Source: Tetramitus jugosus (lineage: Eukaryota; Heterolobosea; Eutetramitea; Acrasida; Vahlkampfiidae). From it: DNA of 64,000 nt. How positions within the stretch are numbered: position 1 is the stretch's first letter; every line of letters begins with the position of its first letter. Of this stretch, positions 3,028-28,994 are shown in pieces. The notes under the pieces were generated by a model that saw only the letters and a list, made by a program, of their open reading frames with translations, made no database searches and was not told the DNA's origin. The position numbers were made by a program, and so were the translations under genes. Location of the stretch: positions 186,001 to 250,000 of the forward strand of contig OW569380.1 in NCBI GenBank assembly GCA_937625935.1, given 5' to 3'.

Positions 3028-3109
3028 TGCATGCGGTGAGATTTGAACTCACGCATCCGGAGATATCCGAACTTGAGTCGGACGCCTTAGACCACTCGGC
3101 CACGCATGC
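3028..3109 (-). tRNA. tRNA-Leu(CAA)
   Basis: Read on the minus strand from 3109, the sequence folds as a class II tRNA: acceptor GCATGCG pairs with CGCATGC, the D-arm holds GAGTGGTCTAAGG, the anticodon stem TCCGA/TCGGA closes the loop CTCAAGT (anticodon CAA), then a long variable arm, the T-arm GAGTTCAAATCTC and discriminator A. A T-run typical of a Pol III terminator follows (minus strand, about 3024-3019). No intron is seen. The 5' flank of this gene is occupied by the retroelement cluster starting near 3139. Confidence 0.97.
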
Positions 3110-3148
3110 TTCTTGCATTATTTCATTTGTCTATTGTGATGTGTGATT

Positions 3149-3163
3149 GGCTCAAAAACGCAG
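3149..3163 (+). repeat. Target-site duplication of element A, 5' copy
   Basis: GGCTCAAAAACGCAG here is repeated exactly at 6628-6642, directly after the poly-A of element A. The match can be stretched by two further A residues, so the duplication is 15-17 bp. The last base of this copy is 54 bp upstream of the first tRNA-Leu nucleotide. Confidence 0.9.
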
Positions 3164-3164
3164 A

Positions 3165-6100
3165 ATGACGGACAATAACCTTTTCGATGTGAACGAAAAG
3201 CTGGGTACTGAGAGGTTCCACACCTTCTACAAGAAGGGCTCCTCTTCACGCATTGACACAGTATGGTGCAACAGAGCCGCCCTTGAAGATATAGAAGCAG
3301 TGAGAATGTACACTCAAAATGGTGTAGGCAGTGATCATGTTCCCACACTGTTGGTAGTGGAAACTGATAAGCACACTCCAACCTTAAGTGAACGCACGTC
3401 GTATCGCTTTCCAAAAGATAGGAGGGATCCTGGGTGGGTGGATTATGCAAAAAACGTTGTTAGTAAGTTGAAGAGAGGGTGGATTCAGGACTCTAACGAT
3501 GTAGATTCACAATGTGAACTTATCACCAGCACCATTCTTGAGCAGGCCCAGAAATTCCGTGATGTGAAAGCAACAAAAACATGGAGACAGAGTAGAAGGG
3601 AGAGAAGACTATTGAAACATAGAGCTTTGTTGATGAAATTTATGTCTCACCACGTATGGTGCTCCAAGCTGGACCGGATCTGCTCGTCCACCGGCAAGAA
3701 TGAACCAAGAGTCGATAGAGTATTGAGTACACTCAAATACATAAATGATTCACTCCACCAAGCAAGGGCGAAGAAGGCAACACAGAAGTACAGAAAGTGG
3801 GAGTGGGTGGCGAGAACGTCTGAATTCAGTGACCCGTCTAGATTTTTCTCTGCTGCCTCTGCAAAGAAGAGTAGTAGAGTCCGCCTTGCAAGGGTCACCA
3901 AAAACGGTATGCAGTACACAGATCCTCATATAGTTGGTGAAGTAGCAGCTGACTACTTCGAAGAGGCATTCAAGAAGGATGAAGCTAGCATGGGCTTCCT
4001 TGCACTGATGGATAGTCACAGCGATAAACACAAACTGAGGGCGGCTATCCAACCGTTCAAGACAGAAGAAGTCGCGGAAGCAATCAGATGGCTAAGGAAC
4101 AGGAAATGTCCAGGTGCTGACGGTGTTCATAACGAGATGGTCAAACTTCCTCGCACCAAGAAAAGAGACTTCAGGTGGGACTTGGCGGAGATCCTCTGCG
4201 ATTTCTTCAACAACATCACTGCTACAGGCAAGTTCCCCAGAGCTTGGAAGGAGTGTGTGATCATCCCAGCCTACAAGAAAGGGGACGTCACACGACCAGA
4301 GAACTATCGTCCTATTTGCCTTCTTAGTTCTTTGTCTAAGCTTTACACTAAGCTTTTGAATCAACGCATCTCGAAGGCGGCAGAGGAAGGAGGTGTGTTT
4401 ACGAATGTTCAAGGGGGTGCAAGAAAATTTCGGGATATCAGGGAGAAACTCTCCTTGATAAGGGGTGTAATTGACTTTGCCAACCGTCATGACAAGCAAT
4501 TGTACCTCCTATTAACGGATATCTCGAAGGCATTCGACTCGGTGCCGCACAACGCTATAGAAGCAGTGTATAGATTCTTTGGTTTTCCTGAGGGAATAGT
4601 GAAACTTGTCAGTGGTATGGTGCGTGACAATCATGCGCGGGTCTTGACCTCTTCGCTTTCGAGAAGGTTTAGAATAGGGAAGGGTACGAGACAGGGTGAT
4701 TCACTATCACCCACTACCTACATCCTGGTTCACCAAGTGGTTTTGTTATATGTGAAACATCAAGTGAAGGGATTTGGTGCAATGACTCAGAGACTGTGGA
4801 ATGCAGCATACGTGGATGATTGCAATCTGTTCGCTGAGTCCAGAGCGGGCATAGAAATTGCCGCCAAAGCAATGTCTACTGCTTTGGGCTGGCTTCGAAT
4901 GACAATGCATCCTGACAAATTGGAACTCTACGTCAGAAAAGTTGACAGTAAGTCATCGAACGACATTAATGTGGACGGCACCAGGGTGGTAGGGAGAAAC
5001 AACAGGCATGTGTTTCGTGCGCTGGGTCTGTACACGAATCTTAAGGGTGCAACCCAGAAACAGAGAGAACAAGCCTGGCAAAAGGCACAGAGGGTGGTTG
5101 TTAGGCTCAAAATAATGAGACTCACCGCAAGACAAGTGAGTCGGGTGGTGAACACGTGCATCCACCCTATATTTGCCTATGCATCAGAGTTTACTGACTG
5201 GACAGCTGAGTGGTTGGACAAAGTTAATGCACTGGGAAGATCCCTAGTGAAGTTCGGGTCGAAAGCAATGAAGATGTTCCCGACTGAACTGCTATCTATC
5301 GGCTCTGAGCTCGGATCAGTAGGACTAAAAGACATAGAAGAGACAATTGCTACACAGACTGGATGGTTCGTGTTCTCAATGATCAACGGTAAGAGAGACA
5401 CTGAAGCTCGTAGGCTGTTTCTTGACACGCTTGAGGATATTAAGCACCACCAAACATTCCAACAAGAGAATGTATTTCAGTCAAGCAACAGACTCGAGAA
5501 TGTCGCGTCAACTTACCACAAGTGGTGTGCCATCAGGATGCACACACATGGGATCAGATTAACTGTAAGTACGACTACGCAGTGTGATGAGTGCAGACTG
5601 GCAAGGTACGTGCCATCCACCACCCTCAAGAAACTCTACCTCTCAGGTATAGTAAGCCGCAATCAACTGCTTGTGGAGGAACAGCCTCTGTGCTTCAAAG
5701 AATTCAAGCAACTATTCCCAACATGTAAGATAGGTGCAAATTCGCACCAAATACTGAACATTTTGATTGCGCAGATGAGGACATGTCAGTGTCCCATAAA
5801 CCAAAACTCTACTAAAGATGAACCGGCTCTGTACAAGGGTAACCTCCGAGTCGAGAGTAGGGAACATCTGCAGTCCTTGTTCGATCAGGAGAGGAATGCA
5901 CGAGTAGAGAAGAGCGAGCGTTGGTGGATTCAAAAGGATGCCAACTACAGTGGAGCAGACTTCTGCTTTCTCAAGTACCCACACTCTGTTGACAGAAGGC
6001 TGGAATGGTTCCAGCTTCAGGTCAGAAGTGGGACTCTACATACGGAGGATGTTGTTCGATGTCTGTACAACACTTGTGATGAGCCCACAAAGTGTGTCTG

Positions 6101-6497
6101 GTGCAACAAAGAGCCCGAAAGTGTGTTGCACTGTCTCATTCGATGTCCAAGGGCTGTGTATGCAAGAAGGTGTCTAGCCTTGACAGTCAGTAAGGAGCTG
6201 ATCAGAATGGGCGTGTCAGCCAACAGCTGTATCGACATATGGTTCGATAATGTGAGACTGAAGGACGGCAAGATGGAAAAGCGTCCTTTGCGATGGACGA
6301 GCAGAGAATTTCTGAAAGGTATGATGGGCATAGAAACAAATGCCATCGAAGATGTCACCAACGGACTGGTAGAGATTGGGATCAAAACAGCAGAAGCCAG
6401 TAAGAAAGCTAAAACCTATGTGAATGGGGTGAAACGGAGATGTCTCACGACTCTCCTTCACCTCTTCACAACAACAAAAGCGAAACAACAGCAATGA
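3165..6497 (+). CDS. LINE ORF2, 5'-truncated: partial endonuclease + reverse transcriptase
   Basis: The first ATG is the junction ATG at 3165, giving about 1110 residues. Only the last endonuclease motifs remain (SRIDTVWCN and SDHVP near residues 25-60). The reverse transcriptase is complete: YRPICLLSSLSKLYTKLL, LLTDISKAFDSVPH, GTRQGDSLSP and the catalytic AAYVDD (about base 4807). A C-x2-C-x8-H-x4-C zinc knuckle (CVWCNKEPESVLHCLIRC) lies about 135 residues from the C-terminus. Compared with ORF2 of element D the layout is the same, but identity appears only moderate, so A and D are different subfamilies. With no complete endonuclease this copy should not be autonomous. Whether it is translated at all is unknown. 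Confidence 0.9.
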   Translation: MTDNNLFDVNEKLGTERFHTFYKKGSSSRIDTVWCNRAALEDIEAVRMYTQNGVGSDHVPTLLVVETDKHTPTLSERTSYRFPKDRRDPGWVDYAKNVVSKLKRGWIQDSNDVDSQCELITSTILEQAQKFRDVKATKTWRQSRRERRLLKHRALLMKFMSHHVWCSKLDRICSSTGKNEPRVDRVLSTLKYINDSLHQARAKKATQKYRKWEWVARTSEFSDPSRFFSAASAKKSSRVRLARVTKNGMQYTDPHIVGEVAADYFEEAFKKDEASMGFLALMDSHSDKHKLRAAIQPFKTEEVAEAIRWLRNRKCPGADGVHNEMVKLPRTKKRDFRWDLAEILCDFFNNITATGKFPRAWKECVIIPAYKKGDVTRPENYRPICLLSSLSKLYTKLLNQRISKAAEEGGVFTNVQGGARKFRDIREKLSLIRGVIDFANRHDKQLYLLLTDISKAFDSVPHNAIEAVYRFFGFPEGIVKLVSGMVRDNHARVLTSSLSRRFRIGKGTRQGDSLSPTTYILVHQVVLLYVKHQVKGFGAMTQRLWNAAYVDDCNLFAESRAGIEIAAKAMSTALGWLRMTMHPDKLELYVRKVDSKSSNDINVDGTRVVGRNNRHVFRALGLYTNLKGATQKQREQAWQKAQRVVVRLKIMRLTARQVSRVVNTCIHPIFAYASEFTDWTAEWLDKVNALGRSLVKFGSKAMKMFPTELLSIGSELGSVGLKDIEETIATQTGWFVFSMINGKRDTEARRLFLDTLEDIKHHQTFQQENVFQSSNRLENVASTYHKWCAIRMHTHGIRLTVSTTTQCDECRLARYVPSTTLKKLYLSGIVSRNQLLVEEQPLCFKEFKQLFPTCKIGANSHQILNILIAQMRTCQCPINQNSTKDEPALYKGNLRVESREHLQSLFDQERNARVEKSERWWIQKDANYSGADFCFLKYPHSVDRRLEWFQLQVRSGTLHTEDVVRCLYNTCDEPTKCVWCNKEPESVLHCLIRCPRAVYARRCLALTVSKELIRMGVSANSCIDIWFDNVRLKDGKMEKRPLRWTSREFLKGMMGIETNAIEDVTNGLVEIGIKTAEASKKAKTYVNGVKRRCLTTLLHLFTTTKAKQQQ

Positions 6498-6605
6498 CGT
6501 TCTGCGAGCGTCATTGGGAATTAATCAGAAGACCAAGAGCCATCGCTCAATGAGCGATGGTTGATGAATATGTATTGATAATAAAGTGAGCAACCGCAAT
6601 GGTTG
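6492..6605 (+). other. Three hairpins in the 3' end of element A
   Basis: Hairpin I: CAATGACGTTC (6492-6502) pairs with GAGCGTCATTG (6506-6516) around a 3-base loop, with one G-U pair, and contains the TGA stop. Hairpin II: CCATCGCTC (6540-6548) pairs with GAGCGATGG (6552-6560) around AAT. Hairpin III: CAACC (6591-6595) pairs with GGTTG (6601-6605) right before TATT and the poly-A. Element D has hairpins in the same places with other sequences. A role as the structure bound by the element's own reverse transcriptase is inferred. Confidence 0.75.
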
Positions 6606-6627
6606 TATTAAAAAAAAAAAAAAAAAA

Positions 6628-6642
6628 GGCTCAAAAACGCAG
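6628..6642 (+). repeat. Target-site duplication of element A, 3' copy
   Basis: Exact second copy of the 15-bp site at 3149-3163, immediately after the element A poly-A tract. It is followed by the leader of element B, showing that A entered B. Confidence 0.9.
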
Positions 6643-6657
6643 AAAAAACGGAATCAC

Positions 6658-7392
6658 ATGTCTGGTGATTCAACAAATTTGGTGAAGGAATACGGCAACA
6701 GCCGTTATGCAGTGTGGACCACTGCACGGAAAGGCTCTAGGCCAAGTGACAGAGAGGTGGTCATTACTGGCAACGGTAATGGTGTCTCTCAGTCATCTTT
6801 GGCAAGAAAGATAGGAGAGGAGTTTGGTGACTGGCTCAATCGAGTCCAGGTCATCAAGAGGAAAGGCCAGCAACGCTTTGTTGCATGGGTGACGGTCAAG
6901 GGTGACCGCATCTATGAGTTTGTAGAGCTATTCAACAAACAGAGGAGGATTGGCAACAGCACTGCTGCACCCAAGCGCAGTGTTGATTGCACAAGAAAGG
7001 TGGTCGTCCATGGCATGAAGAACATGTCAGTGGACGACATCAAGAAGCTACTGGGACCTGAGAAGGTTGCCAGTGTGCTACAGAAGCGTGACACTGCTTT
7101 CGTGGTCATGGGTGATGAAACCTATGCACGGGCAGTGCTCAGCGGAGAGAACAAGGTCAAGGTCACGGTCATTCGATACGCCGAGAGACCACATGATCCT
7201 CTCAAGGCTGTCAACAAGAGGTTGACGAAGATGTACGAGGAGCTGCTGATGGTGGTTGACGGACTGCGTCGACAGGTCACAGAACTCACCAAGGAATTGG
7301 CAAAGACAAAGGGTCAAGGGGGCAACAAACAGGTTCCAATGCCGGAACAAGAATTGCCCAAGCCACTGCTAGGATGGAGACTCCTGAGCTAG
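6658..7392 (+). CDS. LINE ORF1-like RNA-binding protein (element B)
   Basis: About 244 residues from the first good ATG, after the A-rich leader. The sequence follows ORF1 of element D: a motif like 'YGNSRYAVWT..' near the start, then REVVITGN...VQVIKRK...FVAWVTVKGDRIYEFVELF, then KVVVHGMKNMSVDDIKKLLG...TAFVVMGDETYARAVL. Both blocks have the beta-alpha-beta-beta-alpha spacing of RRM-like folds. A short coiled coil (PLKAVNKRLTKMYEELLMVVDGLRRQVTELTKEL region) follows. In other LINEs, ORF1 proteins bind element RNA as multimers; that role is inferred here. It stops 19 bases into the next ORF. Confidence 0.75.
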   Translation: MSGDSTNLVKEYGNSRYAVWTTARKGSRPSDREVVITGNGNGVSQSSLARKIGEEFGDWLNRVQVIKRKGQQRFVAWVTVKGDRIYEFVELFNKQRRIGNSTAAPKRSVDCTRKVVVHGMKNMSVDDIKKLLGPEKVASVLQKRDTAFVVMGDETYARAVLSGENKVKVTVIRYAERPHDPLKAVNKRLTKMYEELLMVVDGLRRQVTELTKELAKTKGQGGNKQVPMPEQELPKPLLGWRLLS

Positions 7393-7760
7393 TGGAGGCA
7401 GGAGAACAGAGGACTGTAGCAACACCACTGCCATCAGTGCCTTTTGTGCAGCTCAGTGCGGAGAACCGGCGAATTCTGGAGCAAGTGAATGCCACTTCTC
7501 CAGTGTTCGCCAGAGTGAAAAAGGAAATTGCTGCATTGGCTCTAGCTGCTGCACGCAAAAGGTATGGTTTGACTGAGGACGAACCAGTCATTGTGGATGT
7601 GGATGATGACTCTGAAAAGGAGATTCAGAGTCCACAACTCAATGACAACAAGAAGAGGAGTGCTAGGGTCACACTGGGTGATCTGATGAGCAACAAAGCC
7701 CAAAACAAGAAAACAACAAAAGATGGCTCTGTGTCCATCACTCACAAAACAAGTCAATAA
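7374..7760 (+). CDS. Second small ORF of element B, unknown
   Basis: A 128-residue frame whose ATG overlaps the last 19 bases of the preceding ORF, in the +1 frame. It may be the C-terminal part of ORF1 after a frameshift, or a separate second protein. It is acidic in the middle (VDVDDDSEKE) and basic toward the end, with no recognised domain. D's ORF1 also has a long low-complexity charged C-terminal part, which favours the frameshift reading. The stop lies just before the conserved 3' end of the element. Confidence 0.45.
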   Translation: METPELVEAGEQRTVATPLPSVPFVQLSAENRRILEQVNATSPVFARVKKEIAALALAAARKRYGLTEDEPVIVDVDDDSEKEIQSPQLNDNKKRSARVTLGDLMSNKAQNKKTTKDGSVSITHKTSQ

Positions 7761-7849
7761 ATGAGCAATCGTGCGCAAGCACACATGGTTGTATGGAAAA
7801 AAATAAAAAAATGTGTGATTCGCCCACAAAAAGAAGTCGCAGAAAAAAG

Positions 7850-8475
7850 GTGCGAGTGCGATTGATAATGGTGTGCATGCAGAATTCACAACCATGAAAT
7901 ACGTGTTGTCACCAAAACTACTCGCTCATACTGTGATAGTTGTTGATTGGACAGGTATGTACCAAGTGCAATTCTCAAGAAGCTTTACCAAGCTGGTATC
8001 ACAAACCGTGCGCAACTAATGGTTGAAGATCACCCTCTGTGTCTGAAGGAATTCAAACATATCTTCCCGCCTGCAAGGTCGTTTGAGGTGCTGAAAGTGG
8101 GTGTGGATGTGCCGAAAGGAAGAGGTCAGTCGAAAGTGCAGAACTGGACTTACACCAGGGTAATCTGTATGTGGAAAGTAGATCTACACTCTATTCGACC
8201 AAGAAAGAACTGCAAGAGTAGATGAAGACGAGCGGCGTTGGCTACAGCGGGCAGCAAATAACAGTGGCTCAGATTTTAGCTTCCTCAAATACCCCCATGG
8301 TATAGACAGGAAGCTGGAATGGTTTCAGTGGAACACTACACACAGCAGAGGTTGTACGGTATCTATACAACATTGGTGATGTGTAGGTCATGTGTAGCTG
8401 GTGTCAGAGTTAGCCCGAGAGTGTGCTCCACTGTTTGATCAGTTGCTCGGAATGGGTTATTGCGAGCCATGGTGA
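7850..8475 (+). mobile_element. Element C: decayed 3' half of a LINE ORF2
   Basis: Conceptual reading gives fragments that line up in order with element A's ORF2 C-terminal part: WCA.RIHNHEIRVVT, DRYVPSAILKKLYQAG, VEDHPLCLKEFKHIFP, SGSDFSFLKYPHGIDRKLEWFQ, then PESVLHCLI. Stops and frameshifts break the frame many times, and no clear 3' hairpin or poly-A remains. It is the oldest of the three insertions stacked upstream of tRNA-Leu(CAA), and it points the same way as A and B. Confidence 0.8.
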
Positions 8476-8519
8476 AACAGTAAATGAAGTGAACAACCTA
8501 TGCAACCGGTTTCTTCCCG

Positions 8520-9035
8520 AATCAATTGTTCTTGCAGCATTGTAAGGTTATCTGGATGTTGACCTTGACAGAGTGCCATATGTGAATGAAAAGCAGGAAT
8601 GTCAAACGATTGAATTTGCAGAATTTCGATTTCGATAGATTGGTAACATCCACTGCGGCTTTGTTCATCGCTTCCTTAATCTCGTCTTCGTAGTAGTGCT
8701 CCAAGTGGGTGAGCATCTTTCCACACCAAACCTCTAATGCTAATTCATCTCCCAAACAATCCAGAGCAGGGATGTATATGACAAGCCAGCCAGTCTGAGA
8801 ACAATATTGGGTCATAAGGAATAGTAAACTAGCTCCCTCTGCTCCATAGGGCATGTCCCAAACTATCGATCATGTTTTCAGTGTCAAATTGACGCGACCA
8901 ATCATCAATGATGGCAAAGAGATAAAGAGCATCCTTTCTGAGCACCAAGGTGAATTGGCCATCTTGATTTGGCTTCAATTCTGTTGTAAATAAAAGAAAC
9001 ATGATGGTTAAAGTATGATCATTAGAAAGTCCCAC
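8520..9035 (-). pseudogene. Decayed P-loop NTPase gene, possibly mitochondrial ribosomal protein S29 (DAP3)-like
   Basis: Two minus-strand fragments in different frames make a plausible protein remnant: LVLRKDALYLFAIIDDWSRQF, then, after a frameshift, MPYGAEGASLLFLMTQYCSQTGWLVIYIPALDCLG in two short blocks. The second block looks like a GxxGxGKS Walker A helix followed by a 'GW.V.YIP' strand as in the DAP3 family, but the lysine of the P-loop is lost (GAEGAS). A likely 3' splice site (TTTATTTACAACAG) precedes the first fragment. No intact version exists in the window. The family name is a weak call; decay is better supported. Confidence 0.35.
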
Positions 9036-9245
9036 TAAATCCGATAATTGAAAAGTATTGGTTGGCTACCGGAATCTTGGCTCAGTCATCACTTTTGCTT
9101 TTTTGTTGGTCTATTGGATTCATTGGCGCGTGTCTTTCGTGACGAGTCTGGCTATCTTTTCCTTGGTCTAAAAATCAAGCCCTAACTTTTTCGTGTTTTG
9201 CTGGGGAACCAATTTACTGCATTCGAACAAAACATGCACTTATAT

Positions 9246-10481: not shown

Positions 10482-10768
10482 TTTTCGTGCTTTGTGTGGA
10501 ATTGTCGGATGATCGGTGAATCTGTGTGAAAATTCTATTTTTGATTGTTCGAATTCAATTAGGTTATAAATTGTATGGGATTGTTGTTTACAACGGGAAG
10601 TCTGAAAAAGAATCCTTGCTTTCAGGGTGTCAATTATTAGAAAGGGCTTCTCTTCACAGAAAGTTGTTCTTCTTTTATCAGTTGGAGGATACAGACTGAA
10701 CAAGAAGAAAACAGATACAACCGATACTTTCGCACAAACAACAACAGTTAAGAACAAATCGTTTAACA

Positions 10769-11629: not shown

Positions 11630-11716
11630 GCACATGAACTTCAAAATACATTGTAACAACAATAACAAACCAATCAATATAAGTCACAAAACAAACAAAC
11701 AAAACCCTTTTGTCCT

Positions 11717-12181: not shown

Positions 12182-12387
12182 GATGAGATCTTGTTTCTGG
12201 TCGTTTTTGTGTGCGTTGGGTTGAAATTTCTTCTCTCGTGAGAAAAATTTCCTTTTCTTTTAAAAAACTTCAAGCGTTGAAATGAGGTCGTAAGACGAGG
12301 GTTTGTTTCACTTCCTTTAACACCTCAGAGGGCGAGGTTGAGTCATGAACTTGAACTGTTGATACTCTCAAAAGAAAAAGAAAAAAT

Positions 12388-18835: not shown

Positions 18836-19325
18836 CTTGTATGTTGCTATAGTGTGTCTTTGGTTGGTTTGTTGTGATGGTTTGGTTGTTAGATGGGTGT
18901 GGTGCTTTGTTGGTTGTTAATTTTGGGTTTAGCACAGTGCTGAGGATCTCGTCATCTACGAATTATAAACCAATCTCAGGGACCAAATTTAACAAAACTT
19001 TTGGGTATTCATTGGATGTTTCGATCAGGTATTGTCGGGGAAAATTGGTCCCTACAAAGAAACGTCCGAGAATGGCCATAGTGTTGTCCTAGGTGGGCAA
19101 AAACACCTGGGCGTTTCAGTCACCGCGGAACTGTCCTACCTAACTGATAGTGAATATCTTCTCAAGGGCAACGTGCAAGACCAATGCGTAAAGAGCCCTT
19201 GAATTACGGTTCTGTAGTCCAGGCAGAGTTGGTTCCGACCATTCATTCTTCTGTGTGTATTTTTACTTGCACACGGATCTTTGAGCTTACCGGATATCAC
19301 AAAAAACACGAACTTCACAGCAGAC
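18836..19325. promoter_or_regulatory. Shared intergenic promoter region between phosphoketolase and acetate kinase
   Basis: 490 bp between two divergent starts whose products act in sequence. It should hold both promoters, perhaps with common control sites. No element can be named from sequence alone. The only long frames here are the non-ATG extension of acetate kinase and its antisense shadows. Confidence 0.5.
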
Positions 19326-20663
19326 ATGAGTGCACCAAAACATCATATACTAATTCTCAATCTGGGCAGCTCTTCCCTCAAGTTTCACTTGTATCACGTA
19401 TCAGATGGCTCTGATCAGAGCAGTGTCAGATCAAGTCAAATTTCGCTCCTGTATCATGGACTCGTGGAACGCATTGGTGAGTTAAAGGGTAGTGCTATCA
19501 AACTTCGAAGCAATGTGGACAATCAGAAGAAGAAGGAACAATGGGACGAAAAAATGGACTCGCATGCAGATGCCATTGACAAGGTGTTTGAAATCTTGAA
19601 AGACAAGGACATTAAGGATATTAAGGACTCTTTGTTGTTCATTGGTCATCGTGTCGTTCATGGGGGTCAATCGTTCCACGACAAGAATTCTGCTCATTTG
19701 ATCAATGATGACACTGTGCAGGAGATTGAAAAGGTGTCAGAGCTCGCACCACTGCACAATCCAGTCAACCTCAAGGGTATTGTCGAATGCAGGAAAAAGT
19801 TTGAGGATACACCGCAGATTGCAGTGTTTGACACGAGCTTTCATCACACTTTACCTCCAGTGGCCTTCACATATGCATTACCAAAGGATATTGTCGATCG
19901 TCAAGTAAGAAAATATGGTTTCCATGGTATCTCGCACGAGTATGTATCTCATGAAGCGACCAAGTTCCTTCGAGAGAGAGCAAGTCGTAACAGTGGTAGC
20001 GCCAATGAAGATGATGAAGAACTAAAGTTGATCACACTGCATTTGGGCAATGGTTGCAGTGCTTGTGCAATCAAGGGAGGCAAAAGCATTGAAACATCGA
20101 TGGGAATGACACCACTACAGGGATTGGTGATGGGAACGAGGTGTGGAGATATCGACCCAGAATTCATCTTTTATACGTTGAGAAAGCATGATAATACAGT
20201 GAATCGCGACACTGTGTATGCGATTGAGAAGATGTTGAATGGAAAGAGTGGACTCAAAGGCGTGTGTGGAGTCAATGACATGAGAAGTGTAATTGAACAA
20301 ATGAATAGTGGCAGTGAAGATGCAAAGTTAGCATTTGAGCTCTTTTGCTATCGTATTAAGCAATACATTGGTTCCTACTTTGTAACATTGAGCGGATGTA
20401 ATGCCATAGTGTTCACTGCTGGTATCGGAGAGAACTCTGCTGATGTGAGAAGAGAGGTTTGCAAGCAATTGACATGCATTGGTGTTGAGTTGGATGATGA
20501 GTTGAACTCCAGTCAGGATCACGACTCAAGTGCAGTGCGTGATGTTGCAACAGCAAACAGTGCCGTACGGATCCTGGTTGTACCAACTGACGAAGAACGG
20601 CAGATTGCTCTCATGGGACTACAGTTGCTCGCAGAGAGGAAGGATGCCACAGTAAACTCATAA
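19326..20663 (+). CDS. ackA: Acetate kinase
   Basis: 445 residues from the ATG at 19326; no upstream in-frame ATG was needed. Acetate kinase moves phosphate between acetyl-phosphate and ADP to give acetate and ATP. Motifs of the acetate/propionate kinase (ASKHA) fold: ILNLGSSSLKF at the N-terminus (phosphate 1), FIGHRVVHGG, FDTSFHHTLPP, YGFHGISHEYVS, TLHLGNGCSACAIKGGKSIETSMGMTPLQGLVMGTRCGDIDP in parts, and FTAGIGENSADVR. A 25-residue insert (NSGSANEDDEE region) is low-complexity. Together with the divergent phosphoketolase it forms a two-step route from pentose phosphate to acetate plus ATP. It looks intact and cytosolic. Confidence 0.95.
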   Translation: MSAPKHHILILNLGSSSLKFHLYHVSDGSDQSSVRSSQISLLYHGLVERIGELKGSAIKLRSNVDNQKKKEQWDEKMDSHADAIDKVFEILKDKDIKDIKDSLLFIGHRVVHGGQSFHDKNSAHLINDDTVQEIEKVSELAPLHNPVNLKGIVECRKKFEDTPQIAVFDTSFHHTLPPVAFTYALPKDIVDRQVRKYGFHGISHEYVSHEATKFLRERASRNSGSANEDDEELKLITLHLGNGCSACAIKGGKSIETSMGMTPLQGLVMGTRCGDIDPEFIFYTLRKHDNTVNRDTVYAIEKMLNGKSGLKGVCGVNDMRSVIEQMNSGSEDAKLAFELFCYRIKQYIGSYFVTLSGCNAIVFTAGIGENSADVRREVCKQLTCIGVELDDELNSSQDHDSSAVRDVATANSAVRILVVPTDEERQIALMGLQLLAERKDATVNS

Positions 20664-21423: not shown

Positions 21424-21671
21424 TGCTATCTTGTATCGCTTGAATGTAGGTTGGTTCTTTGTTGTAGTTTGTGGTTACGTGTTGGTTCGTTTATTTGTGC
21501 CAATGTGAGCTCGAATATAAATTTGAATTGAGGGTGTGTGGTGGTACCTTGGTGATTAGTCTGAATTATCTGCCAGGTGTCGCTCCACGTTTCCTAAAGA
21601 CAAAAAAAGGCAATGGATTCAATCATTTGCAATCAAAAAGATCGCCGCTGGATGGAAACTCAAAAAAACAA

Positions 21672-21715
21672 CTAAAGGCAGGCCCAACCGAGAATCGAAC
21701 CCTTACCTTTGTCTC
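21672..21715 (-). pseudogene. 3' part of a decayed tRNA gene
   Basis: On the minus strand the stretch carries a tRNA-like T-arm (GGGTTCGATTCTC) followed by an acceptor-like TTGGGCC, and then a T7 run (plus-strand A-run at about 21662-21668) like a Pol III terminator. No D-arm, anticodon arm or matching 5' acceptor could be found in the next 60 bases, and the T-stem has two mismatches. I read it as a broken tRNA gene. Its 5' side faces the LINE relic that begins at about 21770. Confidence 0.4.
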
Positions 21716-21769
21716 TATTTTTGCCGCTTTGGAGAAATCACTACGCAGATGGAATCATCAAGATCGTCG

Positions 21770-21990
21770 ATAGTACTAACTTCATGTGGCCCATGCCGAG
21801 GAAGTCGAGCAGAGAGTACCTCATGGGAATGATGGGATTAGAGAACGACGCTGTCGACCAGGTGGCAGATGCGCTGATGAAAAATGGGATGAAACAAGAA
21901 GTAGCGCATCGAAAGGCCCGTAGTTTTGTGTGCACACAAAAGCAGAATTGGCATGTGCAACCAGCTTGTAGTAACAGGAGAACTCCATGA
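21770..21990 (+). mobile_element. Element E: short relic of a LINE ORF2 C-terminus
   Basis: Conceptual translation gives SSREYLMGMMGLENDAVDQV followed by ADALMKNGM and a KARSFV segment. It aligns with the C-terminal region of element A (SREFLKGMMGIETNAIEDV) and element D (SKEYMLGMLGIETRALKQV). Only about 60 residues of similarity remain, so it is heavily 5'-truncated, and no 3' hairpin or poly-A is evident. It points away from the tRNA relic at 21672-21715, the same geometry as the other copies. Confidence 0.7.
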
Positions 21991-22052
21991 AGAATTGGAT
22001 TGGCTGGCTCAACAACTAAAAGTATAGGGCGAACAGAGAACAATAATTTTGA

Positions 22053-23630
22053 TTAGTATGAGCATGTTCGACGATGTTGTTGTGCTTGATCCGGGTCTCG
22101 GTAGCTCCTCAAACAACACCAAAAGAATTCATAGGTACAGGATCCACATGTCATATGCATGCACCTACCATTCTTTTCTATTGCCACGCTACAGCGTGGA
22201 CAAGATTTGGTGTGGCTCAAGATCCAAGCTTCTGATGTTTGCTGATCTTTCTTTTTCTGCAGTTGCCTCTTTTGGTCCTCATCATATCCAGCACATGATA
22301 AACCTCTGTGCCAAACCATTTCATGTTCTGTGCAAATGATCTGATCACAAGCCTTGCAGAGTTCTTTTGGTTTTGAAGCGTTAGGCACATGAATTTCTTC
22401 ACAACCAGGAGAGGGACACCAAATCCAATCCCTTCTTACATCAGTCGATTGAATTGATTCAAAGAATACGGAATTCCTACGAGCCTCCAAATGCTCTGTT
22501 CTTTTGGATGTTTCATAAATCTTGAATTCAGCATCACTAATTAGTCCATTCTTCAATGCAGCTCGAATATCTAGGTAAGTGATCAATTTTCCACAATTCA
22601 TAGCACATGTAATGTTTGAACTCTGATTATTCATTATTTTTGTCCTCAACTGGGTTGAAAAGCATGTAGGGCAAACCTCGCACTCCTTACTACATCTGGA
22701 AGCACAAATGAAAGCCTCTTCACGCTCCATATAGCAGATGTTGCATGTTTTAACTCTGTTGTCATGAATAGTGGGGATAACAATATCTGAAGTACCAGTA
22801 GATGTACCTGTTTTTCCCTTTCTCCAATCAGATCTGAGTGACTTTCCTTGGGCGACCGATGGGGAAGTGTGCCCTGCTTCTTCAGGGATATGGGAGAAAG
22901 AACTTCGCAATGATCCAAAGTATTCGGAGCGGTTAGATATCAGCGAATCTGTGTTGATCTGAGTATTTTGATTTGTATCAGGTTTCGTGTGACTATCTCT
23001 GGACTTTCCACAGTTTCTACATGTCTTTTTCCAGATGTGCTCTTCATAATTCGAACAACCAAGAGAATTGGTAGTTAGTGGCACTACCTCGTTTGAAACT
23101 GTGATTCTTTCACTTTGAGGAGATCGATTTGTGACAACACTAGGTCTGTTCACCGAAATGTCAGCTTGGGAAGAAATAGTTTGCCTCTTGGTGTGTTGCA
23201 CATCAGTTGATTGCAGAGCTATAGGTTCTGCAACGTGTTCTTCCCTAGTTCTGCCACAGCTCTTGCAAGTCTTTTTCCAAGTGTGCTCATATCTTGTGCA
23301 ATGGATGTCTCTTGGCTCCGGATTCATGACATCCGAGTGTTTCTTTTGACTGCTATCATGTGGCTCTGATCTAGCAACTTGGTGGGAAGTAATTGAGTTT
23401 TCCTCCTTGATGTGGCCATGTTTTCTCTCTGCTGAACCGAATTCTACTCTCGAATTGACTCGCTGGGAACTCTCTGAACGGCCATGTGACAGTACATTTG
23501 CTCTTGTTGGAGAATTTTCAACAGTGACCGACTGACCTACTCCTTGTTGAGATTGTTCAAGTCGAAGAACACTTGCAGTCACTAAAAAACCTTGATTCAC
23601 CAAATACCTATGAATTGATTCCAAATCCAT
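22053..23630 (-). CDS. RBR-type E3 ubiquitin ligase with a LisH-like N-terminus and two CCCH motifs
   Basis: 525 residues. Residues 3-26 look like a LisH dimerisation helix pair (ESIHRYLVNQGFLVTASVLRL). Two near-identical motifs follow at about 111-132 and 192-214: C..YE.H.WKKTC..CG..R..H, which could each hold one zinc. Residues ~296-350 form RING1 (CNICYMEREE...CPTCF), 403-446 an IBR (WCPSPGC...CKACDQIICTEHEMVWH), and 477-506 RING2 (CPRCSVAIEKNGRCMHMTC). Cys490, in the NGRCMHM motif, matches the catalytic cysteine of parkin-type ligases, so the enzyme should pass ubiquitin through a thioester. The family call is strong; the substrate is unknown. Confidence 0.85.
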   Translation of the reverse strand: MDLESIHRYLVNQGFLVTASVLRLEQSQQGVGQSVTVENSPTRANVLSHGRSESSQRVNSRVEFGSAERKHGHIKEENSITSHQVARSEPHDSSQKKHSDVMNPEPRDIHCTRYEHTWKKTCKSCGRTREEHVAEPIALQSTDVQHTKRQTISSQADISVNRPSVVTNRSPQSERITVSNEVVPLTTNSLGCSNYEEHIWKKTCRNCGKSRDSHTKPDTNQNTQINTDSLISNRSEYFGSLRSSFSHIPEEAGHTSPSVAQGKSLRSDWRKGKTGTSTGTSDIVIPTIHDNRVKTCNICYMEREEAFICASRCSKECEVCPTCFSTQLRTKIMNNQSSNITCAMNCGKLITYLDIRAALKNGLISDAEFKIYETSKRTEHLEARRNSVFFESIQSTDVRRDWIWCPSPGCEEIHVPNASKPKELCKACDQIICTEHEMVWHRGLSCAGYDEDQKRQLQKKKDQQTSEAWILSHTKSCPRCSVAIEKNGRCMHMTCGSCTYEFFWCCLRSYRDPDQAQQHRRTCSY

Positions 23631-23780
23631 TGTTTTTGTTTGTTCCGTTCACAAGTTTTGACGTGGTGAAATGTGAAGGAAGACTTCGGACAAAATTCTA
23701 GTTCCCATTCCACAAAGTACATGCACGACGAAGAACTCAATGAGCCAATGTAACAGGAACCAAGGAAAAGGTCAAAACTC

Positions 23781-23860
23781 TGACGAGGGCGGGATTTGAA
23801 CCCGCGCCCCGAAGGACTGCGGCCTTAACACAGCGTCTTAGACCACTCGACCACCTCGCC
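23781..23860 (-). tRNA. tRNA-Leu(AAG)
   Basis: Minus strand from 23860: acceptor GGCGAGG pairs with CCTCGTC (one G-U), the D-arm holds GAGTGGTCTAAG, the anticodon stem CTGTG/CGCAG closes the loop TTAAGGC (anticodon AAG), a class II variable arm (TCCTTCGGGG) and T-arm GGGTTCAAATCCC follow, with discriminator A. A TTTT terminator lies at about 23777-23774 on the minus strand. No intron. The full-length LINE begins 56 bp upstream of the first base. Confidence 0.96.
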
Positions 23861-23901
23861 ATTTCGATAATTTTGCTCCGAAAGTAGACCAGCTCCAGTT
23901 T

Positions 23902-23916
23902 TTTGGAATGAATTTC
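23902..23916 (+). repeat. Target-site duplication of element D, 5' copy
   Basis: TTTGGAATGAATTTC here recurs exactly at 28995-29009, right after the element's poly-A. The end of this copy is 56 bp from the tRNA-Leu(AAG) start. Confidence 0.93.
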
Positions 23917-23926
23917 AAAAAAACAG

Positions 23927-25039
23927 ATGCAAACAAACGAAATCATTCCATCCTCTCAAGGGGTGCGCGAGTATGTCAAAAACAGGCATGCGGTATGGAC
24001 TGCACTTCCCACAGGAGGTACAGTCAACAAACGTGAAGTGGTCATTAAGGGTAGTAACCAACAGGGCTCGGTCATGGAGGTTGCGAGGCATGTCGCAAGC
24101 AGGTGTTCACCTTGGGCCACTAGAGTCCAGGTGATCAAATGGGAGAAAGATGAGTACATTGCATGGCTCAACATCAAGAAAGACGAGATCTATGAGTTTG
24201 TGGAGCATTTCAACACAACAAAGTGTGTGAAAAATGCCAAGGCATTCATCAAGAGAGGATTAGACAATGACAAGAAGCTTGTTATGCATGGTGTAGAAGG
24301 AAAAACTACGGAGGAGATTGCAAGACTTGTTGGAACTGAGAAAGTACAACAAGTGGTGAAGAACAGTAATACGGCCTTTGTTACAATGAGGTCACCAACA
24401 TACGCGCAAGCACTGATTGAAGATTCTCGTCTCAGTGTGAAGGTGAGCAAGTACACTGAAAGAAGGGAGGAACCAATCATGGTGGTTAACCGAAGATTGG
24501 AAACCACTAGAAAACAACTCACTCTAATGGTCGAGTCTCTTACAAGAAAAATGAACAAGTTGGAACTGGAGTTGAATAAGCTCAAAGTAAATGCTTCTAT
24601 TCAGCAAGAGGAGCCACAAAGGAAGATACAGAAGAGGACGACTAAGAAGCGAGCATCGAACCAGTCAAGAGACGGGGCTGAAGCAACACAAACCACTGCG
24701 GAGCTAGCAGTGGAAACAGATAATTGGGACTCAGTTTTACTTCCTGATGTAAGAGACGATATGCTAGATGATCTAGGCCACTCCCCTCAAAGACGTAGAA
24801 GTAAGAGCACGAGTGCACTAGGAAGCAGGTCAGCTTTCGAGGAACTGGCCGAGATGTGTCTCGTGAATGGCGGAGACACTCCTGTGAAGAGTAATGGCAA
24901 GAGGTGCTCCACCACGCAACTGGATGAACAAAATCAGAGAAAGAGGCAATTGGTCAACACTCCGATCAGATTGCCGTCTTTAAGAAGCAGAAGGGCACCT
25001 GAAGCGGAAGTGCCGAGGAGAGTTCCGAACCAATGTTAG
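23927..25039 (+). CDS. LINE ORF1 RNA-binding protein (element D)
   Basis: 370 residues. The N-terminal half has two blocks with RRM-like spacing: REVVIKGSNQQGSV...VQVIKWEKDEYIAWLNIKKDEIYEF, and KLVMHGVEGKTTEEIARLVG...TAFVTMRSPTYAQALI. A leucine-rich amphipathic segment (RKQLTLMVESLTRKMNKLELEL) could trimerise or dimerise it. The C-terminal half is charged, K/R/Q/S-rich and probably disordered. No CCHC knuckles are present. The presumed role is coating the element RNA and delivering it to chromatin. The stop codon overlaps the ORF2 start (ATGTTAG at 25033-25039), so ORF2 is likely made by termination and re-initiation. Confidence 0.88.
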   Translation: MQTNEIIPSSQGVREYVKNRHAVWTALPTGGTVNKREVVIKGSNQQGSVMEVARHVASRCSPWATRVQVIKWEKDEYIAWLNIKKDEIYEFVEHFNTTKCVKNAKAFIKRGLDNDKKLVMHGVEGKTTEEIARLVGTEKVQQVVKNSNTAFVTMRSPTYAQALIEDSRLSVKVSKYTERREEPIMVVNRRLETTRKQLTLMVESLTRKMNKLELELNKLKVNASIQQEEPQRKIQKRTTKKRASNQSRDGAEATQTTAELAVETDNWDSVLLPDVRDDMLDDLGHSPQRRRSKSTSALGSRSAFEELAEMCLVNGGDTPVKSNGKRCSTTQLDEQNQRKRQLVNTPIRLPSLRSRRAPEAEVPRRVPNQC

Positions 25040-28000
25040 AAATCATGTGGTACAATGTCAACGGACTGCCTGGTAAATCCGTCGACATACTCAACATGTT
25101 GGAGCAGGAGGACATCGATGTGCTTTTGCTGCAAGAAACAAGAATATTACACCAGGTGCAACTGACGCGGTTGCAAAAACAATTGGCAGCACTGAATTAT
25201 GCAATCCTATGCGAATTTCCCAGTCGATATCTGGCTACGATTATCAACACGAAGAACGTCACCAGTTATGGCAGTGTCCACAACGGGGAACGCCTCCAAG
25301 TGGTGAGAGTAGAATGTGCCAGTGAAACCATTTACATTGCTAATCATTACGGTCCACACAAGATTGATGTTCCCCACTACAACTACGTCAAAGAAACAAT
25401 GAGCAGTATCGCATCATCTGGTAAGGTCCTATTTGGAGGTGATCATAATGCAGTGGTCGCTAAGGAGGACAGAACATCGGGTCGCAAAGATCCGAATACG
25501 AATTGTCTGATCAGCTCCATGTATAGTTGTAACATGCAGGATATCAACCGGGTGTTAGGAGTGCATAAATTCCACACCTACTTCAAGAGGACTATGTCAT
25601 CTAGAATTGATTCTACATGGGCCAACAAGGCAGCTCTAAGTGTCGTCCGAAATATAGAAGCGTTCACAAGAAACGGGGCTCTGACTGATCACATACCAAC
25701 GAAGGTGTCAGTGGAAGTGGAACACAAGACTGATGGCTGTGACAAGGATGATAGAACAAGCATGGTCTTCCCCAAGAACAAACTGGACAGTAGATGGGCG
25801 AACTACGCCACTGAAGTGCTGTCTGATCTGTCTAAGCAACGGATAGAGGATATGAGTGACCCACAAACACAATGCGAAATGTTGACCAAAGTCCTGGTTA
25901 CTCGGGCTGTGGAGTTCTTTGGCGAACAGAGCACTACAAAGCGCTGGGTGGATAATAGGCGTGTGAGAAGACTCATCCAGAGCAGAAAACTTGTGCTCGA
26001 TTATCTAGTCAGCGGTACTGTCGGCGAGCATTTGTGTAAAGTACTCACTAACTATGGTGGACAAACAGAAATAGGAAGAGAGTCAGTATGGTCGACACTG
26101 GGAATAATCAATCAGAGATTGTATCAAGAGAGGACTAGACACACGTGTAAGAGATTCAGACGGTGGGAGTGGGTTGCAAGAACATCAGAGTTCGTAAACC
26201 CGAGTAAGTTCTTCTCTACGGCAAGCGCAAAGAAATCTAACCGAATCAGGCTTAACACCATTGAAGAAGAGGGCATGACTCACACCGACCCAGAAAAGGT
26301 AAGCAGCAAGGCGGCAGAATATTTTGAGTCGGCCTTCTCACATTCCTATGCGGACATGAGCTATCTTAGTGAGCTTGAAGCTCCCAGAATGGAGGAAATG
26401 ATTAAGAAGGAGTATACGGAGATCACGGTGGAAGAAGTTCGTAATGCAGTTAAATGGCTGAGGAATAGGAAATGCCCGGGGCCTGATGGCATTCACAACG
26501 AAATGCTCAAAATGCCAGTGACTGAAAGCAGAGATTACAGTTGGGAACTAGCAGAAGTGCTGGCCCACCTTTTCAACAACATACTGGTGAGTGGGGTGTT
26601 CCCCACCGTGTGGAAGGAGTGTACGATTATTCCGGCGTACAAGAAAGGGAGTGCACAAGACATTGCGAACTACAGGCCCATCTGCCTCCTCAGCTCAGTG
26701 GCTAAGTTGTTCACCAGATTGCTTAACACCAGAGTGTCTAAGGCAGCGGAAGCGGCTTCGATATTCACAAATACTCAAGGAGGAGGTAGGAAATTCAGGG
26801 ACATCAGAGAGAAGCTATCGATTATGAGGGGTGTTATCGACCATGCAAACAGGAACGATAGCCAGTTGTATTTGTTGCTGACCGATATTGCGAAAGCTTT
26901 TGATTCTGTCCCACACAACGCCATCAGGGAAGTGTACTCGTTCTTTGGATTCCCAAGTAGTATCGTCGGACTGGTACACGATATGGTTACAAACAATTGG
27001 GCCCGAGTGATGACGGGAACATTATCGCGACGTTTTTCAATAGGTAAGGGTACAAGGCAGGGTGATTCGTTGTCACCAACTACGTACGTTCTAGTCCATC
27101 AAACTGTGCTACTGTATACTGCCAGGCTTGCTAAGGGTTACCCGGCAGGGACTCAAAACATTTGGAATGTTGCGTACGTGGACGATTGTAATCTCATGTC
27201 AAGTGATAGAAATGACATCGAGATGACTGCAAACCGCATGAACGAGGTTTTGGGTAAGTTAAAGATGACCATGCACCCCACCAAGCTGGAATTGTATGTC
27301 AGAAAACATGGAAAAACACCATCAGACCATAATATAATGGTCAATGGAGTGGTTGTGGCTGCAAATGGAAGTAGGAAAGTTTTCAGGGCACTAGGACTCT
27401 TCACGAACCTAAATGGTTGCACTGTCAAACAGAAAGAGCAAGCCCGAGACAAGGTGGAAAGGGTCATCAAGCGACTCCACATTATGAGACTAACTGCCAG
27501 ACAAGTAGCGAGGATCGTCAACACATGCATCCACCCGGTGTTTCTTTACGCTTCCGAGTTCACTGAGTGGGGGGCAGGGTGGATCAACCGAGTGAATCAT
27601 ATAGGCAAAGCATTGATCAAACGGGGTTCTGTTGCAATGCGGAGGTACCCCTCAGAATTGTTGCATGTGGCGTGCGATAATGGTGGCTTCGGTCTCCGTA
27701 GATTTGAGGAATCATTGCTGGTGAACACTGCTTGGTTCATCATCAACATGCTGAAAGGGAAGCATGATGGCGAGGCTCACAGACTGTTGTTGGATACGCT
27801 TGAGGAGATCAGGCATCTACAAACATTCCAGGTAGAGAATGTATTCCAATCCAACAACAGGATTGAGCTCGTCGCACATAGCTATCTTAAGTGGTGTGCT
27901 GTCCGTATGCACACCAACCACCTCACTATTTCTTGTGGGAATGAGGTCAACTGTCTGAGTTGCAATCTGGCACTCTCTCAGCCAAATGACATCATCAAAA

Positions 28001-28884
28001 GGTTGTTCAAGGTGGGAATAGGGCTGAGGAGTCAATTGACAGTGGGTGGAAAGTGGATCAGGCATAGCGAATTGATCAAAAGGCATGGAAATTTTGGAAT
28101 TAGTTCTCGCAGATACAAGTACTTGACAAGTGACCTTGAAATGCTACAGTGCAATGGAAATCACGAGCATTCAGCCGACACTACCCCAAGGTTAATGTAC
28201 AATGATAGTTTTGAGGTCGTAGAGAAGGAACAGTTGTGGCGAGTCTTCTTGCGACGACATAGGGATAGGGTGAAAGAGGAGAAGGTATGGTGGATACAGT
28301 CTAAGTGTTTAGGAGGTGCTGTAGATTTTAAATTTATGAGATGCCCTTTCAGGGTCGACCGTGCACTGGAATGGTTTGTGGCTCAGGTGAAAAGTCACAC
28401 AATTCACACTAAGGCCGTTGTCCAACATCTCTATGGAGTAGTGGACATGGATACGCTATGTCCCAAATGCAAATTTGAACAGGAAACGGTGTTACATTGT
28501 CTCGTTAGATGCCCGGTGGCGATAATGGCCAGAAAACTGTTGGTGAAGGAAGTTTCCACCAAGCTGAGTAAAATGGGTCTTCACAAGGACCAAAGAGTAG
28601 ACATGTGGTTCGACAACCAACGATGGAGCAACGGCGCATTACTAGTCAATAAGCGGAGGAAAACTAGCAAGGAATACATGCTTGGCATGTTGGGTATTGA
28701 AACAAGGGCGCTGAAACAAGTGATCAAAGGACTGACGAAGAGTGGAATAGAGAAGAAGAAGGCAAGGGAGAAGGCCCAACAATTTGTCGATCATACAAAG
28801 AGGAGATGTGTGGAGGTGATGCGACGCCTCTTCACGAGTTCAAAGGAGATTGCTGGTTGGTTGCTAATGCTCTACGAGCATTAG
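25033..28884 (+). CDS. LINE ORF2: APE-type endonuclease, reverse transcriptase and CCHC knuckle (element D)
   Basis: 1283 residues, open throughout. Endonuclease motifs at about residues 1-230: WYNVNGL, LLLQETR, FGGDHNA, SRIDSTW and TDHIP, covering the expected Asn, Glu, Asp/Asn and Asp-His sites. The reverse transcriptase lies at about 480-760: YRPICLLSSVAKLFTRLL, LLTDIAKAFDSVPH, GTRQGDSLSPTTY and the catalytic VAYVDDCN. Near residue 1145 there is a C-x2-C-x8-H-x4-C knuckle (CPKCKFEQETVLHCLVRC). No integrase or RNase H domain was recognised. The enzyme should nick target DNA and copy the element RNA from the 3' end. How it finds sites beside tRNA genes, perhaps by binding TFIIIB or TFIIIC, is not shown. 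Confidence 0.93.
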   Translation: MLEIMWYNVNGLPGKSVDILNMLEQEDIDVLLLQETRILHQVQLTRLQKQLAALNYAILCEFPSRYLATIINTKNVTSYGSVHNGERLQVVRVECASETIYIANHYGPHKIDVPHYNYVKETMSSIASSGKVLFGGDHNAVVAKEDRTSGRKDPNTNCLISSMYSCNMQDINRVLGVHKFHTYFKRTMSSRIDSTWANKAALSVVRNIEAFTRNGALTDHIPTKVSVEVEHKTDGCDKDDRTSMVFPKNKLDSRWANYATEVLSDLSKQRIEDMSDPQTQCEMLTKVLVTRAVEFFGEQSTTKRWVDNRRVRRLIQSRKLVLDYLVSGTVGEHLCKVLTNYGGQTEIGRESVWSTLGIINQRLYQERTRHTCKRFRRWEWVARTSEFVNPSKFFSTASAKKSNRIRLNTIEEEGMTHTDPEKVSSKAAEYFESAFSHSYADMSYLSELEAPRMEEMIKKEYTEITVEEVRNAVKWLRNRKCPGPDGIHNEMLKMPVTESRDYSWELAEVLAHLFNNILVSGVFPTVWKECTIIPAYKKGSAQDIANYRPICLLSSVAKLFTRLLNTRVSKAAEAASIFTNTQGGGRKFRDIREKLSIMRGVIDHANRNDSQLYLLLTDIAKAFDSVPHNAIREVYSFFGFPSSIVGLVHDMVTNNWARVMTGTLSRRFSIGKGTRQGDSLSPTTYVLVHQTVLLYTARLAKGYPAGTQNIWNVAYVDDCNLMSSDRNDIEMTANRMNEVLGKLKMTMHPTKLELYVRKHGKTPSDHNIMVNGVVVAANGSRKVFRALGLFTNLNGCTVKQKEQARDKVERVIKRLHIMRLTARQVARIVNTCIHPVFLYASEFTEWGAGWINRVNHIGKALIKRGSVAMRRYPSELLHVACDNGGFGLRRFEESLLVNTAWFIINMLKGKHDGEAHRLLLDTLEEIRHLQTFQVENVFQSNNRIELVAHSYLKWCAVRMHTNHLTISCGNEVNCLSCNLALSQPNDIIKRLFKVGIGLRSQLTVGGKWIRHSELIKRHGNFGISSRRYKYLTSDLEMLQCNGNHEHSADTTPRLMYNDSFEVVEKEQLWRVFLRRHRDRVKEEKVWWIQSKCLGGAVDFKFMRCPFRVDRALEWFVAQVKSHTIHTKAVVQHLYGVVDMDTLCPKCKFEQETVLHCLVRCPVAIMARKLLVKEVSTKLSKMGLHKDQRVDMWFDNQRWSNGALLVNKRRKTSKEYMLGMLGIETRALKQVIKGLTKSGIEKKKAREKAQQFVDHTKRRCVEVMRRLFTSSKEIAGWLLMLYEH

Positions 28885-28974
28885 CAACTACTTGAATCAA
28901 TAATGACGGCATTCTGCCGTCACGAAACCGATACAGAGAATCAACAAAGAAGTAAAATGAGCAACCAATGGTTG
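28860..28974 (+). other. Three hairpins in the 3' end of element D
   Basis: Hairpin I: GTTGCTAATGCTC (28860-28872) pairs perfectly with GAGCATTAGCAAC (28876-28888) around TAC and contains the ORF2 stop TAG. Hairpin II: TGACGGCA (28904-28911) pairs with TGCCGTCA (28915-28922) around TTC. Hairpin III: CAACC (28962-28966) pairs with GGTTG (28970-28974) around AAT, just before TATTT and the poly-A. Stem sequences of I and II differ from element A, yet position and loop size agree. Confidence 0.8.
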
Positions 28975-28994
28975 TATTTAAAAAAAAAAAAAAA

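Follow-up and report, generated by a model that had tools for sequence, protein, structure and literature searches.

The window, a stretch of 64,000 nt of DNA, contains five LINE elements (A to E) beside tRNA genes or a tRNA relic, and the question raised by this locus is whether such positions are chosen by the elements and, if so, what is recognized there. The initial annotation had read the elements as a LINE family that targets the 5' flank of tRNA genes and is guided by the distance to a transcription complex rather than by sequence. The assembly to which the window belongs (26.35 Mb, 56 contigs) was searched for further copies, and their distance and orientation to Pol III genes were determined.

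Elements beside tRNA genes in the window

The tRNA genes, the elements and their target-site duplications (TSDs) are listed below; negative positions are counted upstream of the gene.

3027..3109, minus strand: tRNA-Leu(CAA), target gene of the A/B/C stack (ARAGORN)
3140..3153, plus strand: left TSD copy of element B, about -31..-44
3149..3165, plus strand: left TSD copy of element A, spanning -40..-56 (script-compared junctions)
3166..6627, plus strand: element A, 5'-truncated, ORF2 with RT, A-tail (Pfam RVT_1, sequence)
6628..6644, plus strand: right TSD copy of element A
6633..7811, plus strand: element B, ORF1-only class, tail TGGTTGTATGG followed by an A-rich stretch
7812..7825, plus strand: right TSD copy of element B, differing from the left copy at 2 of 14 positions
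7869..8470, plus strand: element C, remnant of a decayed ORF2, stacked with A and B (tblastn)
21687..21702, minus strand: tRNA relic near E, T-arm/B-box, 15/16 nt identical
21781..21933, plus strand: element E, 3' ORF2 remnant, 153 bp
23780..23861, minus strand: tRNA-Leu(AAG), target gene of element D (ARAGORN)
23902..23916, plus strand: left TSD copy of element D, -41..-55
23917..28994, plus strand: element D, ORF1 and ORF2 both open, ORF1 preceded by a 10-nt leader, A-tail
23927..25039, plus strand: ORF1 of element D, 370 aa
25033..28884, plus strand: ORF2 of element D, 1283 aa, AP-type endonuclease and RT
28995..29009, plus strand: right TSD copy of element D
42503-42575, plus strand: tRNA-Met, third tRNA of the window (ARAGORN)

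As first described, all five elements lie beside a tRNA gene or relic and run away from it, E being the weakest of the five because its junction is not definable. The elements A and D, both oriented away from their tRNAs, both carry RT domains (Pfam). The TSD of A is 17 bp long (GGCTCAAAAACGCAGAA) and lies at -40..-56, and that of D is 15 bp long, or 19 bp with a chance extension to -59; the junction distances of 54 bp (A) and 56 bp (D) reported earlier were correct within a few bases of junction ambiguity. The position of B needs a correction. B was not inserted at the position of A; its own TSD lies nearer to the gene, and A entered the leader of B later. The first 12 nt of B are found also at 3154-3165, via the TSD of A, and the ORF1 of B starts at 6658, its open frame stopping at codon 244.

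The hallmarks of a LINE are present, namely, RT, endonuclease, A-tail, TSDs, and 5' truncations, and no LTRs were seen in the sequence of A, B and D. Three hairpins were predicted in the 3' UTR of A (window 6490-6615; fold z -6.0) and of D (window 28850-28984; fold z -5.5), the sequences of which are largely different. The three-hairpin 3' UTR is perhaps a recognition structure for the RT.

Coding capacity of the elements

The ORF1 of D gave no significant family in Pfam, and no ORF1 homologues were found in a set of 5.8 billion proteins at E ≤ 0.001. A low-confidence model shows strands and helices in an RRM-like order and, in addition, a long helix; the AlphaFold prediction, made from two input sequences, was poor (pLDDT 49). 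A search of the assembly with ORF1 gave 111 hits, 64 of which lie in open frames of at least 380 aa. The ORF2 of D, read in the -1 frame, shares 7 nt with ORF1. Homologues of ORF2 comprised nine proteins at E ≤ 0.001 with one query and 11 at E ≤ 1e-5 with a profile, among them P0010 with 52% identity across 53% of the query. A C-terminal Cys/His motif in ORF2 was recognized by eye, the zf-RVT match in Pfam reaching E 0.05-1, and no RNase H was reported in the Pfam scan of two ORF2 proteins.

Association with Pol III genes across the assembly

The 3'-terminal hairpin pattern GCAACC-N0-10-GGTTGTATT matched the assembly 114 times (100 places listed), and the reversed-pattern control gave no match. 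Together with two relaxed patterns and a DNA search, the pattern yielded 127 compiled 3' ends. The loci read were the 10-kb surroundings of the first 21 of these 127 in contig order, plus 30 three-kb loci. A tRNA or 5S gene stood head-to-head on the 5' side of the element in 18 of the 21: 16 copies face a tRNA gene (ARAGORN), three of them sharing one Asp gene, and two face a 5S gene in opposite orientation (Rfam). Neither 5S gene is perfect, as one has an 8-nt internal deletion (L033) and the other differs in its last 5 nt (L049). The copy in L039 lies beside a tRNA-Gly relic that consists of the 5'-most 35 nt of the gene at 100% identity, and the TSD of this copy is at about -40..-54. The copy C4:352964 closes a stack of element pieces, all on one strand, that takes up the greater part of its locus. 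The stack is directed toward a tRNA in the right orientation 10.2 kb off, of which distance the last 2 kb were unread. The tblastn pieces were inspected in 10 of 20 ten-kb loci, and the remaining loci rest on hairpin, A-tail, and TSD. One 3'-end hit, C1:351356, was rejected as a chance motif in a locus without element coding sequence and is still counted among the 21.

In the three-kb loci, a tRNA gene was present in 12 of 30 and was head-to-head in all 12. Seven of the 18 loci without a tRNA were run through Rfam, and two of these seven showed a 5S gene; in the other tRNA-less loci, the flank of 1.5 kb was too short to judge. When each tRNA gene of L001-L050 was counted once, 24 of 25 were head-to-head (p = 7e-14 against 1/4), the sole exception being a tRNA-Val beside the tRNA-Trp target in L044.

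The elements were also compared with partial lists of Pol III genes, comprising 53 nuclear tRNAs, 5S genes, and 100 listed of 243 B-box tRNA hits (control 24), for which the gene starts are approximate because of a fixed 51-nt offset. The 5S core motif occurs in 103 exact copies and, among the 100 listed, is dispersed across many contigs. Within 6 kb, 39 of 52 element/gene pairs were head-to-head on the 5' side against 3.6 expected; the other 13 were in other arrangements, several of these having a head-to-head gene listed as well. The ORF1 hits gave a sharper result. A listed Pol III gene lay within 300 bp of 23 of the 111 hits, and all 23 pairs were head-to-head (0.16 expected), with none in the three other arrangements; 21 of the 23 genes had been listed irrespective of elements, and two (those of window D and L040) were found beside elements. 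The head-to-head arrangement noted in the window is thus beyond chance, and the copies sampled do not lie far from Pol III genes. The gene lists reach 37 of the 127 3' ends. The 90 3' ends without a listed head-to-head gene within 6 kb and the 88 ORF1 hits without a listed Pol III gene within 300 bp are to be regarded as unplaced, not as misses, because the gene lists are incomplete. In a by-eye comparison of the lists, the two U6 copies had no listed element nearby, and two copies test little.

Landing distance and target-site duplications

A total of 39 junctions were compared using a script, and 28 reached the TSD score cut-off of at least 11. By comparison, 10 of 312 mismatched flank pairs and 41 of 1474 pairs of all from different loci reached the cut-off, many of them because the flank holds an older element. 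The 11 junctions without a confident TSD were those of L025, L034, L038, L046, L048, L050, L049, C12:264900, and C11:514333, and one row each of L040 and L042; weak repeats are present at the usual TSD place in L025, L034, L046, and L050.

At tRNA genes, the proximal edge of the TSD lies 39-42 bp upstream in 12 of 13 unambiguous cases (the other at 72) and the distal edge at 52-57 in 19 of 22 (the others at 44, 59, and 87), the 22 including two rows of L042 and the tRNA-Gly relic. The three distal outliers are an ORF1-only copy (44), D with its chance extension (59), and a copy beside a long T-tract (87). At 5S genes, the proximal edge lies 34-36 bp upstream in five of six unambiguous cases (the other at 49) and the distal edge at 48-51 in five of six (the other at 64). 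The tRNA and 5S distal edges differ with all outliers kept (Mann-Whitney p = 0.025). Distances spread evenly were not found in the part read; the edges are narrow.

The 5' end of a 5S gene is the transcription start, whereas a mature tRNA begins several bases downstream of the start. Therefore, a distance that is 6 bp shorter at 5S genes fits a ruler anchored at the start of transcription (TFIIIB) and not in gene sequence. Moreover, the tRNA-Ser gene in L013 has an intron and its distal edge stays at -54, which speaks against a distance measured from the B box. The earlier idea of guidance by complex distance, not by sequence, is strengthened by the 5S genes, which are hit at a start-site-equivalent distance despite their different internal promoter. 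The same genes make the earlier term tRNA-targeting too narrow; tRNA genes are indeed targeted, and with 5S genes among the targets the behavior is to be described as Pol III-gene targeting.

Three distant copies, the ORF2 of which is 42% identical to that of D at the amino acid level, occupy comparable places. The distance from the start of their ORF1 to the gene or relic is 61 bp in L051 (tRNA-Leu with intron), 65 bp in L052 (tRNA-Ser), and 59 bp in L053 (tRNA-Trp relic of 14 nt, at 89-102).

Several loci showed altered genes or distances. In L037, the tRNA-Arg(TCT) gene and the element are separated by a long T-tract, and the TSD is shifted to -72..-87, as though the tract had lengthened after insertion. 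At L033:7867-7978, the element adjoining the 5S gene with the 8-nt internal deletion has its TSD displaced to -49..-64. Among the relics beside elements, the 5' end of the gene alone is left in two (L039:4586-4620 and L053) and the T-arm alone in one (window 21687-21702); such target genes may have been lost through deletion after insertion.

The ORF1-only class and stacked insertions

Element B belongs to a class of ORF1-only copies, together with those in L040, L021, and L008. The leader common to the four is 25-29 nt long (A-rich, CGCAG, A-rich, CGGAATCAC), and their ORF1 has 382-388 aa, the frame of the window copy B being interrupted at codon 244. In B, L040, and L008, a distance of 1.1-1.3 kb separates the ORF1 start from the 3' end and the A-rich tail, and no ORF2 lies in this interval. 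The copy in L021 is without the 3' part, and its leader starts at -44 with no 3' flank to define a TSD. Over 690 nt, dN/dS was 0.11-0.39 in the six pairs of the four copies, which suggests selection on the ORF1 of this class.

The junctions defined by TSDs lie at -44 (window B, with two mismatches), -44 (L040), and -43 (L008). Consequently, the ORF1-only class stands about 10-11 bp, or one DNA turn, closer to the gene than the ORF2-bearing class (p = 0.006; n = 17 vs 3). This closer position, the 5S targets, and the leaders of about 10-29 nt go beyond what had been noted before. In the stacks, the newest insertion is nearest to the gene: A sits in the leader of B, and the same order was found in L008 and L021.

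The 20 ORF1 hits with a near-complete N-terminus start 64-109 bp from the gene. Since the leaders measure 10 nt in D and 25-29 nt in the class of B, little room is left for a conventional 5' promoter in the element. The promoter must sit in the 40-55 bp beside the gene, inside ORF1, or far away.

Alternative explanations of the insertion pattern

The pattern would also arise if the endonuclease recognized a particular DNA sequence which by coincidence occurs in front of Pol III genes. At the two bases next to the proximal nick, T is frequent (15/19 and 12/19), so a mild local preference is possible; this set is biased, as most sites starting with A were left out, and for that reason no endonuclease consensus is claimed. 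The confident TSDs come from 10 tRNA isotypes and from 5S genes and differ in sequence, save for those of A, L008, L021, and L042, which share letters because they lie in or beside the leader of an older element. The TSD sequences are thus not all independent, yet no common motif at the nick was seen in the upstream listing, and recognition of a sequence is very improbable.

Even less probable is random insertion followed by survival under selection only beside Pol III genes. In a compact genome, purging elsewhere is likely to operate too, but selection would hardly yield a proximal edge fixed within 3-4 bp and one orientation. The recurrence of Leu(CAA) and Asp(GTC) genes among the targets could further point to duplication of tRNA-element units in place of independent insertions; as the sites differ in isotype, TSD, truncation point, and subfamily, this is the least probable of the three. 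Sequence-specific targeting, survivorship, and segmental duplication were accordingly rejected on the diversity of the TSDs, the fixed edge and orientation, and the differing sites, respectively.

Comparison with known systems

The closest parallel is TRE5-A of Dictyostelium. According to the accessible text of three papers (PMC5391098, PMC5911963, PMC5006619), TRE5-A inserts upstream of its targets, at 47 ± 3 bp from tRNA genes and at 37-42 bp from 5S genes, with its 5' end facing the gene; its promoter is an A-module, its ORF1 protein binds subunits of TFIIIB, and besides the autonomous TRE5-A.1 there is a non-autonomous form with ORF1 alone (TRE5-A.2). The elements described here likewise insert about 50 bp upstream of tRNA genes, direct their 5' end toward the 5' end of the gene (24/25 tRNA genes and 23/23 ORF1 hits), and land closer at 5S genes (48-51 bp). 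As far as TRE5 is described in that text, an AP endonuclease and an RT in ORF2, here found in D, and ORF1-only derivatives are also shared. The zinc-finger-like motif of the TRE5 ORF2 has a possible counterpart in the C-terminal Cys/His motif of D (zf-RVT at E 0.05-1). The differences from the TRE5-A there described are that the 5' junction lies at about 54-55 bp, which is about 8 bp further out, that leaders of 10 nt (D) and 25-29 nt (class of B) stand in place of the A-module promoter, and that the ORF1-only class is about 10-11 bp closer, whereas TRE5-A.2 behaves like TRE5-A.1. Moreover, the host group differs, and the 5S targets here are dispersed genes (103 exact core motifs). In position, orientation, and the use of 5S genes, the clan behaves as TRE5-A does.

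Membership in, or relationship to, the dictyostelid TRE5 lineage by vertical or horizontal descent would account for the same position and orientation, the use of 5S genes, the AP endonuclease with RT, the -1 frame of ORF2, and the presence of ORF1-only members resembling TRE5-A.2. However, the host is discobid-like (cox11 on mitochondrial-type contigs, see below), there is no room for a TRE5-like 5' promoter module, and the ORF1-only class is in a different register. Such descent is considered unlikely.

Other systems resemble the clan in part. NLTR-B of Polysphondylium pallidum is, in the accessible descriptions, a LINE found about 50 bp upstream of tRNA genes, but it has an RNase H domain, none being reported for the ORF2 here; in this respect the elements differ from NLTR-A/NLTR-B, in which RNase H lies downstream of the RT. 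Ty3, Tj1, and DGLT-A also target Pol III genes, Ty3 through TFIIIB; in the same descriptions, these are LTR retrotransposons that land nearer to the start site, whereas the present element is a LINE. The RT is detectably similar to that of R2-type LINEs (R2 proteins in the PDB). R2 recognizes a 28S sequence, whereas the endonuclease here is AP-type and the targets differ in sequence, so that a fixed target is not seen. No LINE with Pol III-gene targeting outside dictyostelids was found among the open-access PMC matches listed, which is weak evidence of absence, and in the accessible part of a review table the LINEs targeting Pol III genes are all from dictyostelids.

Proposed mechanism and its significance

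Insertions of several subfamilies, including the ORF1-only class, lie at a fixed distance from tRNA and 5S genes, in a single orientation, and in targets that differ in sequence. It is highly probable that a multi-subfamily AP-endonuclease LINE clan integrates at Pol III initiation complexes, along their upstream edge. Integration presumably proceeds by target-primed reverse transcription. The element RNP would dock on gene-bound TFIIIB, probably through ORF1; Pol III or another factor at the start site is a less likely docking partner, and TFIIIC, on both gene classes, is a further candidate. The endonuclease would place its first nick on the strand reading like the tRNA, some 35 bp upstream of the start site, and with this geometry the A-tail would join the far side and the 5' end of the element would face the gene. 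Each new insertion would take the same slot and push older copies outward. Full-length copies, having almost no 5' leader, may use a borrowed promoter, that is, promoter activity diverging from the target site.

A wider reading is offered tentatively. The elements would be an independently evolved Pol III-docking LINE clan outside Amoebozoa that has dispensed with a promoter of its own. By landing in a single orientation directly upstream of the slot of TFIIIB, it would be expressed by transcription diverging from the Pol III gene, the promoter being taken over by each new arrival. On one and the same complex, ORF2-bearing and ORF1-only members would dock in two registers that differ by one DNA turn.

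Pol III-gene targeting by LINEs in a second eukaryotic group is a natural replicate of dictyostelid targeting. The features common to both (orientation, distance, and the closer position at 5S genes) are probably dictated by the Pol III machinery, and those that differ (register and leader length) are up to the element. As possible targets, the genome offers some 200 or more B-box tRNA hits together with the 103 5S core motifs in dispersed positions. The insertions read out the position of the initiation complex for each gene class, and the binding partner of ORF1 is directly testable.

Host of the elements

The cox11 gene was found on contigs C54 and C56, both with the same tRNA hits at the same coordinates; these are probably the mitochondrial genome assembled twice. 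In the accessible text of two papers (PMC7050145, PMC4202320), cox11 is encoded by the mitochondrial DNA in a jakobid and, as the text implies, in Naegleria, but not in Acrasis. Thus, cox11 on mitochondrial-type contigs indicates that the host is probably a discobid, perhaps a heterolobosean. The GC content of the host is 43%, as against 35-37% given for three Naegleria species in the accessible part of PMC6125883. As the host is probably not a dictyostelid and the 5' leader is very short, the independent evolution of this LINE clan, already proposed in the initial annotation, is plausible.

The window also contains an acetate kinase gene (19281-20663), the best solved-structure match of which is 1g99, presumably a Methanosarcina protein; acetate kinase is uncommon in eukaryotes.
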